DNA of 64,000 nt, taken from an uncultured Rhodospirillales bacterium (GTDB lineage: Bacteria > Pseudomonadota > Alphaproteobacteria > Rhodospirillales > JABHCV01). Shown here piece after piece: positions 4,072-58,726 of this stretch. The stretch's first letter is position 1, and each line of letters begins with the position of its first letter. A program made the translations under genes and the position numbers. The stretch lies in NCBI GenBank assembly GCA_938092065.1, contig CALKND010000016.1, positions 1-64,000 on the forward strand, read 5' to 3'. Below the pieces are notes generated by a model, which had not been told where the DNA came from, made no database searches, and was given only the letters and a program-made list of their open reading frames with translations.

Positions 4072-4455
<384 letters not shown>

Positions 4456-4535
4456 CTTCTTCTTCAGAAATTTTCTCGATTTTCCAATAGTGAATTAAAG
4501 TAGTATAAAAAGAAATTTATGAAGGAACATTGTGC

Positions 4536-55312: not shown

Positions 55313-56929
55313 CTAACACCTAAAACCTGCAAAGAAATCATTACCTTTATCATCAACAATAATGAAGGCAGGAAAATTAACCACGTCAATGCGCCAGATT
55401 GCTTCCATTCCAAGTTCTTCGTAGTCCTGAACTTCTACTTTCTTAATGCAATCCACCGCTAGTCTTGCTGCTGGGCCACCAATAGAGCCTAAGTAGAAAC
55501 CTCCATATTTCTTGCAGGCAGCAGTCACCTGGGCCGAACGATTTCCCTTTGCTAGCATAATTAAGGATCCTCCAGCTGCCTGAAGTTGTTCGACATATGA
55601 ATCCATGCGTCCTGCAGTAGTTGGGCCAAAAGATCCAGAGGCATAGCCCTCAGGAGTTTTTGCAGGGCCCGCGTAATATATAGGATGGTCCTTGAAATAT
55701 TGCGGCAGCTCTTCTCCTGCATCCATACGCTCTTTGAGTTTGGCATGAGCACTATCTCGAGCAACAATCAAGGTGCCACTGAGAGACAGTCTGGTTTTAA
55801 CTGGTTGCATAGAGAGTTTGCCAAGCGTTTTTCCCATGGGCTGGTTAAGGTCAACATTGACAACGCTCTCGGACAGGAGATCATCAGATATGCTGGGCAG
55901 GTATTTTGCTGGGTCGCGTTCTAATGCTTCAATGAAGACACCTTTAGATGTTATTTTACCCTCACACTGGCGGTCAGCCGAGCATGAAACACCAATGCCA
56001 ACCGGGCATGACGCGCCGTGACGGGGCAAGCGAATGACGCGGACATCATGGCAGAAATACTTACCGCCAAACTGAGCACCAATTCCCATGCTTTGGGTCA
56101 TTTTGTGGATTAATGCCTCTATTTCCAAATCGCGAAAGGCTTGTCCTTTTTTGTTACCCATGATTGGCAAAGTATCTAGATATTTTGTTGAGGCAAGTTT
56201 GACTGTTTTTAAATTAGCCTCGGCAGAGGTGCCGCCAATAACAACAGCTAAGTGGTAGGGCGGACAAGCGGCTGTTCCGAGAGTCCGAATTTTATCATCC
56301 AAAAAAGTCATAAGGCTATCTATGTTCAGCAAGGCTTTAGTTTGCTGATAAAGAAACGTCTTGTTGGCTGAACCACCGCCTTTGGCCATAAATAGGAATT
56401 GGTATTCATCCCCCTCAGTAGCGTAGATGTCAATCTGAGCTGGTAGGTTGTTGCCTGTGTTAGTCTCATTGAACATATCTAAGGGAGCAACCTGTGAATA
56501 GCGAAAGTTGCTTTCATTAAAAGTTTTTAAAACTCCTTCGCTAAGCGCTGCTTCATCATCACTGTCTGTCCATACTTGCTGGCCCTTTTTGCCTAAGATA
56601 ATAGCTGTGCCTGTATCCTGACACATGGGGAGTACGCCACCTGCAGCAATATTAGCATTTTTCAATAAATCCAGTGCCACAAAACGATCATTGTCTGATG
56701 CCTCATTATCATCAAGAATATTCCGAAGTTGTTTTAGATGCCCAGACCTGAGAAGGTGGGAGATGTCACGCATGGCCTCACTACAAAGCAAGGTCAGTGC
56801 CTTTGGCGCGACTTTGAGCATGGCTTTGCCTTCAAATTCAATAACGCTGACGTATTCACTAGTGATTAGCCGCCACGGCGTATTGTTATTTGCTAAGGGG
56901 AACATCGTTTGATGAACGTAATTGCTCAT
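55313..56929 (-). CDS. Class I fumarate hydratase (iron-sulfur)
   Basis: A 538-residue iron-sulfur fumarase interconverting fumarate and malate. The three cluster cysteines are probably those in [18 protein letters not shown] and ADRQC. The C-terminal beta domain holds [21 protein letters not shown], the signature of the family. The oxygen-sensitive class I type is used here; whether the genome also has class II fumC is unknown. It follows sspB by 12 bases on the same strand. Confidence 0.95.
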
Positions 56930-56941
56930 GCAATAAAGTTC

Positions 56942-57481
56942 CTATTTTTTACGAAAATTGTCCAATGCGATCACTTTGCCCATTTTATCATCTTTTCTGT
57001 CGTTGTCATCATCCATAGAGATTTGCGCCTTTTTACCTTCTGGACTTGGCAGGTCAGACAAGACACCAATAGCAGCGGCATTTTCCGGGTAGACTGAAGT
57101 GTTTTCAGTAACTTCAATATTCTTTTCTGCCATTTTTAATTGTAGAACGAAATTGACGGTCGGGTCAGCAAAGGTGACGATGGCTGAGTAGGGTACTTGC
57201 AAATGACACAGTCGACCGCCAAAACTTAATGATACACTAAATCCAACATCACTGACATCAAGATCATTAAACTGATGCTGCAGAACAATGGTCATTTCTT
57301 TAGGGTGTTCGGCCCGTAGGTGGGCAGGAATTTTAACATCAGCTTGACCAGTTAAAAAAGTGATAAAAAAATGATGGTCGCCGAGCAAGCCATTAAGCAT
57401 CGTCTGTTCAAGGGCACGCTTAATTACGACACGAAGGGCTTCCTCTACCCATTTTTCATAACTCAAAGGTTCTTCATTCAT
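56942..57481 (-). CDS. SspB, ClpXP protease-specificity factor (alpha type)
   Basis: A 179-residue adaptor. The substrate-binding domain occupies about residues 1-125 (YEKWVEEALRVVIKRAL, HHFFITFLTGQADVKIPAHL, MTIVLQHQFNDLDVSDVGFSV), followed by a flexible acidic linker and the short terminal ClpX-binding motif (KVIALDNFRKK). It recognises the ssrA tag and delivers tagged proteins to ClpXP. The ssrA gene lies directly upstream on the same strand, about 80 bases away. Confidence 0.93.
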   Translation of the reverse strand: MNEEPLSYEKWVEEALRVVIKRALEQTMLNGLLGDHHFFITFLTGQADVKIPAHLRAEHPKEMTIVLQHQFNDLDVSDVGFSVSLSFGGRLCHLQVPYSAIVTFADPTVNFVLQLKMAEKNIEVTENTSVYPENAAAIGVLSDLPSPEGKKAQISMDDDNDRKDDKMGKVIALDNFRKK

Positions 57482-57560
57482 AATATCGCCTTGCTACTCC
57501 GGTTCTGCGCCTTTTGAAAAGCTCTATGTTTTCTGTTTGGCAATGCTAAAGAATGCCAAG

Positions 57561-57845
57561 TGGGGAGCTTCTGTTGCCAGGTGCCCCCCGAACCCCGTAG
57601 TAAGAGCCGTTAGGCTGCTACTGCAAATGCCTCATTATCGTTGGCATTTCTTTGTTTGGCCCGATAACGGTGGATACCATGCCGAACGAAAGCTGAACCT
57701 TTACCACGCACGTCGATCCTGTTTCGCCCCCATTGCATATCCTTTGTGGGGATAAGAAGATTTGGTGGAGGCGCCGGGCACTGCCCCCGGGTCCGTAACG
57801 ATTATTCCGTACAGTGTTTATCGTTATAGTCGGTTACCCGACATT
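57561..57845 (-). ncRNA. Two-piece (permuted) tmRNA, ssrA
   Basis: The rescue RNA for stalled ribosomes, circularly permuted as in alphaproteobacteria. On the minus strand the acceptor piece comes first (about 57845-57763) and ends in CCTCCACCA. After a spacer of about 30 bases the coding piece begins with GGGGGCGAAACAGGATCGAC (from 57731). The 5' GGGGGCG (57731-57725) pairs with CGCCTCC near the acceptor 3' end, with a G-U at the third pair, the identity element for alanyl-tRNA synthetase. The tag frame ends in TAA at 57610. A seven-pair hairpin (GGGGGGC with GCTCCCC) closes the coding piece at about 57562. End coordinates are estimates from pairing. Confidence 0.93.
57610..57645 (-). other. 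tmRNA tag-peptide reading frame (ANDNEAFAVAA)
   Basis: Within the coding piece of ssrA the codons GCC AAC GAT AAT GAG GCA TTT GCA GTA GCA GCC TAA encode ANDNEAFAVAA followed by stop. With the alanine carried by the tmRNA itself the degradation tag would be AANDNEAFAVAA. The AANDN beginning is the part read by SspB in other bacteria and the AVAA end is the ClpX degron, as in Caulobacter. Confidence 0.92.
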
Positions 57846-57848
57846 TTT

Positions 57849-57877
57849 AATATAAGCTGAAAGAAACACTATTGGAA
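57849..57877 (-). promoter_or_regulatory. Predicted ssrA promoter
   Basis: On the minus strand TTCCAA (57877-57872) is followed after 17 bases by TATATT (57854-57849), a good -10 but a weak -35. The start would be near 57842-57843, where the acceptor piece begins with a small hairpin (GTCGG, GTAA, CCGAC). The match in position supports the call. Confidence 0.5.
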
Positions 57878-57931
57878 GGGGCGGGGATGGGGTATTTTTA
57901 GCTTAATAGAATCGTTTAAGGAAATTTACTT

Positions 57932-58726
57932 GTGAAACAATATCTCGCTTTGATGGCCCAAGTTCGCCATAAAGGTATATTGAAGGAAGATCGGACTGGT
58001 ACCGGCACACTTAGCCTATTTGGTGCTCAATTGCGTTTTGATTTGAATGCTGGTTTTCCTGTGTTGACCACCAAGAAACTTCACATGAAGTCAATCATAC
58101 ACGAACTTCTGTGGTTCCTAGCAGGCGATACCAACATCAAATACCTTAAAGATAATGGCGTCAGGATCTGGGATGAGTGGGCCGATGAAAAAGGACATTT
58201 AGGGCCAGTTTATGGCTCTCAGTGGCGTTCTTGGCCAACACCAGATGGTAGTAAAGTCGACCAAATTTCCAACTTGATTGAGCAGATCAAGTATAAACCC
58301 GATTCTCGCCGGTTGATTGTTAGTGCATGGAATGTTGCCGATATTGAAAACATGGCCCTGCCGCCGTGTCATTGTTTGTTCCAATTTTATGTGGCAGGTG
58401 GCCGCTTGTCCTGTCAGCTTTATCAACGTAGTGCGGATTTATTTTTAGGCGTACCCTTTAACATTGCTTCCTACGCGCTGCTGACCATGATGGTTGCTCA
58501 GGTATGCGGACTTAAACTAGGTGATTTTGTCCATACCTTTGGTGACGTGCATCTATACTCCAATCATTTAGAACAGACAGATCTGCAACTATCGCGCACA
58601 CCGAAGATGCTGCCAGATTTGAAGATCAACCCCAATGTAAAAGATATTTTTTCGTTCTCCTTTAATGATTTTGAGCTTCAAGGCTATAATAGCGATCCAC
58701 ATATATATGCTCCGGTGGCTGTTTGA
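57932..58726 (+). CDS. ThyA, thymidylate synthase
   Basis: A 264-residue enzyme methylating dUMP to dTMP using methylene-tetrahydrofolate. The catalytic cysteine is Cys146 in [13 protein letters not shown], and the dUMP-binding block [22 protein letters not shown] is intact. The length equals the E. coli type. The start is GTG 57932 with AAGGA eight bases upstream. It overlaps folA by one base; the pair is a natural unit, since ThyA makes dihydrofolate and FolA recycles it. Confidence 0.97.

Follow-up and report, generated by a model that had tools for sequence, protein, structure and literature searches.

On the minus strand of the window, a stretch of 64 000 nt from an uncultured Rhodospirillales bacterium, the Rfam model alpha_tmRNA (RF01849) matches positions 57881–57559 far above chance, with 265.7 bits against a cut-off of 50 (E 3.6e-76) and over model positions 1–355 of 355. 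The general model for permuted tmRNAs (RF04321, tmRNA_permuted) matches inside this region at 57825–57610 (151.3 bits, E 5.1e-30), and ARAGORN, which is independent of Rfam, calls a permuted tmRNA with the tag ANDNEAFAVAA. Judged from these matches, 57881–57559 is the ssrA gene of this genome in the circularly permuted alphaproteobacterial form. An earlier note on this DNA had read the gene as a permuted two-piece ssrA with exactly this tag, and the searches bear out both the gene form, with the acceptor piece first, and the tag. Along the transcribed strand, CGCCTCC (57773–57767) is followed by an A and by an encoded CCA (57765–57763), which thus lies ahead of GGGGGCG (57731–57725), as in the permuted order. 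GGGGGCG and CGCCTCC can form the pairs G-C, G-C, G-U, G-C, G-C, C-G and G-C; this seven-pair acceptor stem is drawn in the structure lines of both Rfam models, so that the third-position G-U pair and the CCA-terminated acceptor described in the note are both present.

The acceptor piece, the amino-acid-accepting RNA, is encoded first (57763–57841, minus strand, from the alignments to both models and the sequence; the 5' end is approximate). It is followed by an intervening segment (57732–57762), which forms the loop between the acceptor-stem arms in both models and, going by the family, would be removed from the precursor. The coding, mRNA-like piece extends from GGGGGCG to the end of the model (57559–57731; RF01849 to position 355 of 355, and ARAGORN). 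It contains the tag reading frame (57645–57610, ANDNEAFAVAA and a stop), whose hydrophobic end is present; among 135 tags called by ARAGORN, 25 end in AVAA and 59 in ALAA. A plus-strand frame at 57537–57755, which the note had dismissed as spurious, has indeed no Pfam match at E 0.001. The coding piece ends in a terminal hairpin (57562–57589): the fold of 57559–57606 has −19.5 kcal/mol (z −2.17), and 4 of 200 shuffles were equally good. Complementary ends of this kind are visible by eye in the tails of other genomes, and in two loci of one family (L120 of genome G010 and L132 of G125) the terminal hairpin loop motif GCAACAGAA occurs twice in tandem after ssrA. The window also holds a bacterial RNase P RNA of class A (4075–4456, plus strand, RF00010, 321.8 bits).

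Across the whole assembly (37 contigs, 90.65% complete) no RF01849 match other than the window ssrA exceeds the cut-off, and no other intact ssrA was found; two further matches score 20.0 and 19.2 bits, under the cut-off, and ARAGORN finds no tmRNA at either locus. The completeness of the assembly and the application of the one-piece model RF00023 to the window only leave some room for a second ssrA, but that the window RNA is a degenerate or decoy copy is extremely improbable, because the match covers all model positions, the stem, CCA and tag are intact, and same-order relatives have an ssrA as well, with an identical tag in 11 of 22.

The next gene on the same strand is sspB (56942–57481, 179 aa), which encodes the ClpXP adaptor for the tag. 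It begins after a spacer of 77 nt (57482–57558), in agreement with the distance of about 80 bases given in the earlier note. The protein matches PF04386 with 128.5 bits (cut-off 27, profile positions 2–151 of 156) and has no NCBIfam match at E 0.001. With the first Met omitted, phmmer retrieves the solved relatives 2NYS (E 3.7e-30), 2QAS and 2QAZ, with E values ranging to 1.8e-25. The PDB labels are AGR_C_3712p for 2NYS and ‘SspB Protein’ for the other two; we take 2QAS and 2QAZ to be Caulobacter proteins and AGR_C_3712p to be from Agrobacterium. In an alignment of 23 sequences (the window protein and 22 class members) the core is conserved, the linker variable, and the C-terminal tail conserved again. 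In this tail, GKVIALDNFRKK in the window protein, D173 and R176 (the first Met left uncounted) are invariant in all 23. The C-terminal tail of known SspB is ClpX-binding. As a member of this family the window SspB would be a tag-binding adaptor of ClpXP, and the co-variation with the tag described below lends indirect support. SmpB (contig C33, 199 bits, on another contig than ssrA) and ClpX (contig C35, 651.9 bits) are encoded in the same assembly. We are highly confident in the identity and role of ssrA and sspB as the source of the tag and its adaptor. A relative of SspB with 40% identity over 76% of the query was also found in MT836065.1 (5376–5780, minus strand), an unannotated 13-kb record from human faecal samples labelled Bacteriophage sp., which may be bacterial DNA.

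The pair is flanked by two further genes recognized by Pfam. Twelve nucleotides past sspB lies a fumarate hydratase gene of the Fumerase type (55313–56929, minus strand), for which the full-length NCBIfam models stay under their cut-offs and two domain models are over them; no role in the system is implied. On the other side of ssrA lies a divergent thyA (57932–58726, plus strand), which occurs upstream of ssrA in 8 of 22 same-order relatives and at 33 of 150 class loci, the window included (one query, flank of at most 1.3 kb).

Upstream sequences of ssrA share two elements, which in the window read CCTTCC (57879–57874) and TTATATT (57855–57849) and form a promoter-like pair (57849–57879, minus strand) of putative function. 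Under a strict rule (at least 6 of 7 matches to CTATATT and at least 4 of 5 to CTTTC) the pair is found at 83 of 150 ssrA genes, compared to 1.6 expected from resampled sequence. Of the 144 genes that match CTATATT in at least 5 of 7 letters, 130 have it at one and the same offset, 26 counted from model position 1. Where both words match well (93 genes), their starts are 22–24 nt apart in 91. Both words were selected visually in these very sequences, and their spacing was bounded by a search that allowed 19–26 nt. An earlier pattern (TTG.. and TATA) matched no more than 27 of the 150 genes and was given up for CTTTC/CTATATT, which fits better, and a generic sigma-70 scan did not detect the site at 57849–57879. 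Since CTTTC and CTATATT lie within the ~33 positions with which RF01849 opens, these positions probably represent promoter DNA and not RNA.

To see how widespread the neighbourhood of ssrA and sspB is, we searched 192 class genomes with a completeness of 90% or more, carrying 132 family labels, with RF01849 and PF04386. An alpha_tmRNA over the cut-off was found in 182 of the 192 genomes; 8 of these have no PF04386 match, which leaves 174 genomes with both genes. Defining adjacency as an SspB start at most 300 nt downstream of ssrA on the same strand, we found the two genes adjacent in 126 of the 174 genomes, a strongly positive outcome of the survey that the earlier note had proposed. Behind this total stand two sets: 150 ssrA loci (149 and the window) examined with an SspB profile grown from the window protein, of which 109 are adjacent, and the remaining 32 genomes, in which 17 of 30 examined loci are adjacent; the genes are not adjacent in G143 and lie on different contigs in G106. 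For the other 48 of the 174 genomes the two genes do not keep to the limit of 300 nt, part of these cases being at contig breaks. Spacers of the 126 adjacent pairs have an estimated median of 72.5 nt; 37 are at most 40 nt and 20 at most 30 nt long, where SspB starts were estimated by profile, so that single lengths may err by some codons (for the window the start rule picks a TTG 15 nt inside the frame and gives 92 nt instead of 77).

Other counts were made as well. A first count from coordinates only, covering 131 genomes with both places, gave 98 adjacent pairs (at most 400 nt to the profile start). Another 17 pairs share their orientation and lie no more than 10 kb apart, 6 are placed otherwise on one contig, and 10 are split between contigs. 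Among the 22 same-order relatives with an ssrA locus (two of the same genus and one of the same family) the genes are adjacent in 20; the same-order search gave no match in 3 of 26 genomes. For the best 80 SspB loci in genome_contigs, ARAGORN places a tmRNA upstream in 57 of 77, counting loci with at least 700 nt upstream and tmRNAs on the same strand that end within 600 nt; Azospirillum brasilense, Rhizobium phaseoli and Magnetospirillum molischianum are among the adjacent cases. Many alphaproteobacteria share the arrangement, which makes it nothing unusual within the group. As both genes are typical representatives of known families, the locus itself, a conserved pair of genes, is ordinary too. 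One could read the adjacency as plain shared descent without functional meaning, given that the genomes are related and not independent and that the genes lie apart in more than a quarter of the genomes with both. However, order and strand are kept in 126 of the 174 across a sample with 132 family labels, at an estimated median spacer of 72.5 nt, and we consider this reading unlikely.

Next, we compared the tags with the presence of SspB. Tags start with ANDN in 131 of 151 SspB-bearing genomes, and 149 of 151 contain the motif N-x-N. Before correction this number was 148, as ARAGORN had miscalled the tag of G052 as GRDDGRAAAPV, for which the frame reads ANDNFAGEYAVAA; the two exceptions are G004 and G092. 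Of the 20 SspB-bearing tags that are not ANDN tags (one being the miscall in G052), 17 have N-x-N compared to 6.2 in shuffles, a number reached by 0 of 2000 shuffles; two of the 17 are identical. Long Arg/Lys-rich tags of 24–31 residues that still have N-x-N were observed at L175 (G077), L176 (G177) and L177 (G087), and more such tags with N-x-N occur in the SspB-bearing genomes at L075 (G150), L109 (G095) and L119 (G183).

In two families, f40 and f84, of which five sampled members each are all without SspB, N-x-N is present in 0 of 10 tags. Among all permuted genomes without SspB, 14 gave a readable tag, and 4 of these keep N-x-N (G025, G115, G157 and G170, all without a PF04386 match); G115 has it within a long tag and the other three have ANDN tags. 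For G115, G157 and G170 another member of the genus or family does have SspB, so that recent loss or assembly gaps are possible explanations; it is also possible that a diverged SspB was missed by the profile. Since the 10 genomes without N-x-N fall in two families, they count as roughly two independent events, and the Fisher test for the ANDN start with 12 SspB-less genomes (G157 and G170 excluded), with its p of 2e-8, is therefore not to be taken at face value. A clean-looking count of 0/5 ANDN starts in SspB-less genomes was weakened once more genomes were added. ARAGORN gave no tmRNA at 15 of 150 and 11 of 47 loci; of these, only G157 and G170 were read manually and included in the tag counts, the rest being left out, as were L200 (the second ssrA of G340, at a contig end) and L187, L188, L190, L191 and L194, which repeat other loci. 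Two assemblies have two ssrA matches over the cut-off, G340 (L185 and L200, with different tags) and G423 (L216 and L231, one of them partial), and contamination is possible in both. Five class genomes have a one-piece tmRNA (RF00023), no SspB match and N-x-N in 0 of 5 tags; these are loci L204–L208 of G151, G245, G068, G196 and G166, where the tags of G196 and G166 have 22 and 23 residues. Taken together, family-wide absence of SspB goes with loss of N-x-N in two lineages, but single absences do not, a pattern that fits N-x-N being the part of the tag that SspB needs but is no proof of it.

The layout raises the question of a shared transcript. The earlier note, which was right on the facts, had fairly marked linked transcription as its own inference. 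On the minus strand of the window spacer a generic scan, which also misses the ssrA promoter, finds no promoter- or terminator-like site, and the fold is unremarkable (z −0.01). With the ssrA promoter matrix the window spacer scores −1.4 compared to 21.2 for the ssrA promoter. Over the 109 adjacent loci, to which the promoter-matrix, terminator and T-tail tests apply out of the 126, the spacers have a median of −2.7 against −6.3 for resampled sequence, and 14 lie over the threshold where 9.15 are expected; as the spacers outscore resampled sequence, some of them may hold promoters. Terminator-like sites were found in 3 of 109 spacers (3.5 expected) and after 4 of 41 ssrA genes without sspB within 300 nt (3.1 expected). 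Intrinsic terminators showed no difference between ssrA with and without sspB and were dropped as a test of read-through; the scan was limited to loops of at most 8 nt, and thus the terminal hairpin of ssrA is invisible to it. A T-rich tail in the 12 bases past the model end is rarer when sspB is next (35 of 109 versus 21 of 40, one contig-end locus dropped), with a Fisher p of 0.035 that ignores relatedness. As evidence this tail was set aside, the excess over local T content being not significant (p 0.087).

The best argument for read-through is the shortest spacers, the 20 of 126 of at most 30 nt; in these and the others of at most 40 nt there is hardly space for a promoter of sspB alone, except within ssrA itself. 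The low score of the window spacer on the promoter matrix points the same way. Indirect evidence being mixed, and the tests for promoters and terminators weak, it is plausible from the layout that part of the sspB mRNA comes from transcripts running on from ssrA, and we give this an even chance. Only slightly below this we place the alternative that sspB is transcribed from a promoter of its own, located in the spacer or in the end of ssrA, that ssrA transcription stops at the terminal hairpin, and that an old block of thyA and ssrA-sspB-fumarase has simply been kept. This alternative can draw on the stability of the hairpin, on the T-rich stretch after it in part of the genomes and on the somewhat raised promoter-matrix scores of the spacers. 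In addition, 19 of the 22 same-order relatives have fumarase next after sspB, which points to inheritance of the entire block. However, the window spacer has no sigma-70-like pattern on the minus strand (a weak test), the shortest estimated spacers fit it poorly, and across the class fumarase was found at 36 of 150 loci compared to 109 of 150 for SspB adjacency, a weak contrast as it rests on one query reaching at most 1.6 kb past ssrA.

The genes, the structure model, the gene order, its conservation and the presence of SmpB and ClpX were observed here, and the families suggest how promoter use, processing, charging, rescue and delivery by SspB would join them. ssrA would be transcribed from the promoter at ~57879–57849 as a precursor with the acceptor piece first, the intervening segment would be removed and the ends trimmed, yielding a coding RNA and an acceptor RNA with CCA at its end, and the two would pair via the seven-pair stem, with the third G-U pair as the alanine signal. 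Together with SmpB the tmRNA would then rescue stalled ribosomes and add A+ANDNEAFAVAA, after which SspB from the next gene would bind the N-terminal part of the tag and hand the protein to ClpXP, which would recognize the hydrophobic end of the tag. Joining these steps with the survey, we tentatively propose, as a possibility that we rate well short of an even chance, that the pair is a class-wide module of tag writer and tag reader, in which processing of the tmRNA precursor frees the sspB mRNA and selection holds the Asn-x-Asn epitope only where SspB is present. If this module reading were true, adaptor supply would be tied to tmRNA supply and the minimal epitope of SspB would be Asn-x-Asn near the start of the tag. 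The useful part of this work is the survey, in which a class-wide gene order joins an RNA-encoded degradation tag to its reader protein, and specialists might find this pairing and the co-variation of the tag useful. It makes it simple to test for a constant ratio of adaptor to tmRNA production and, with tags that differ in the two lineages lacking SspB, supplies a natural variant set for mapping what SspB must see.

Keiler et al. reportedly described the two-piece tmRNA of Caulobacter crescentus in 2000, and SspB-alpha is said to have been described by Lessner et al. in 2007; the tag encoded in Caulobacter is presumably longer than the 11-residue tag of the window ssrA. Excerpts of PMC3985003, PMC11915505 and PMC7335160 deal with the two-piece tmRNA of Alphaproteobacteria and its processing, and an excerpt of PMC8119881 with SspB in the ssrA pathway of Caulobacter. 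In the parts of the open literature searched, we found no mention of ssrA–sspB adjacency in Alphaproteobacteria, which is no proof of its being unpublished. The window gene resembles that of Caulobacter crescentus in being permuted, RF01849 also matching the control genome of Caulobacter vibrioides, and in its predicted two tmRNA pieces held by base pairing, as described for Caulobacter in a section of PMC3985003. The window SspB belongs to the same family by sequence as the SspB-alpha proteins 2QAS, 2QAZ and 2NYS. In a survey of smpB neighbourhoods, ssrA was the most frequent neighbour (PMC4131195, in part); that pairing is similar to ours in that a tmRNA gene lies beside a protein partner of trans-translation, whereas the partner in the window is a proteolytic adaptor and smpB is on another contig. 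Finally, according to an excerpt of PMC2704228, the permuted tmRNA of Candidatus Pelagibacter ubique lies, like that of the window, by a divergent thymidylate synthase gene, but there this gene is thyX while it is thyA in the window, and COG4696, encoded on the opposite strand, is listed as the other neighbour.
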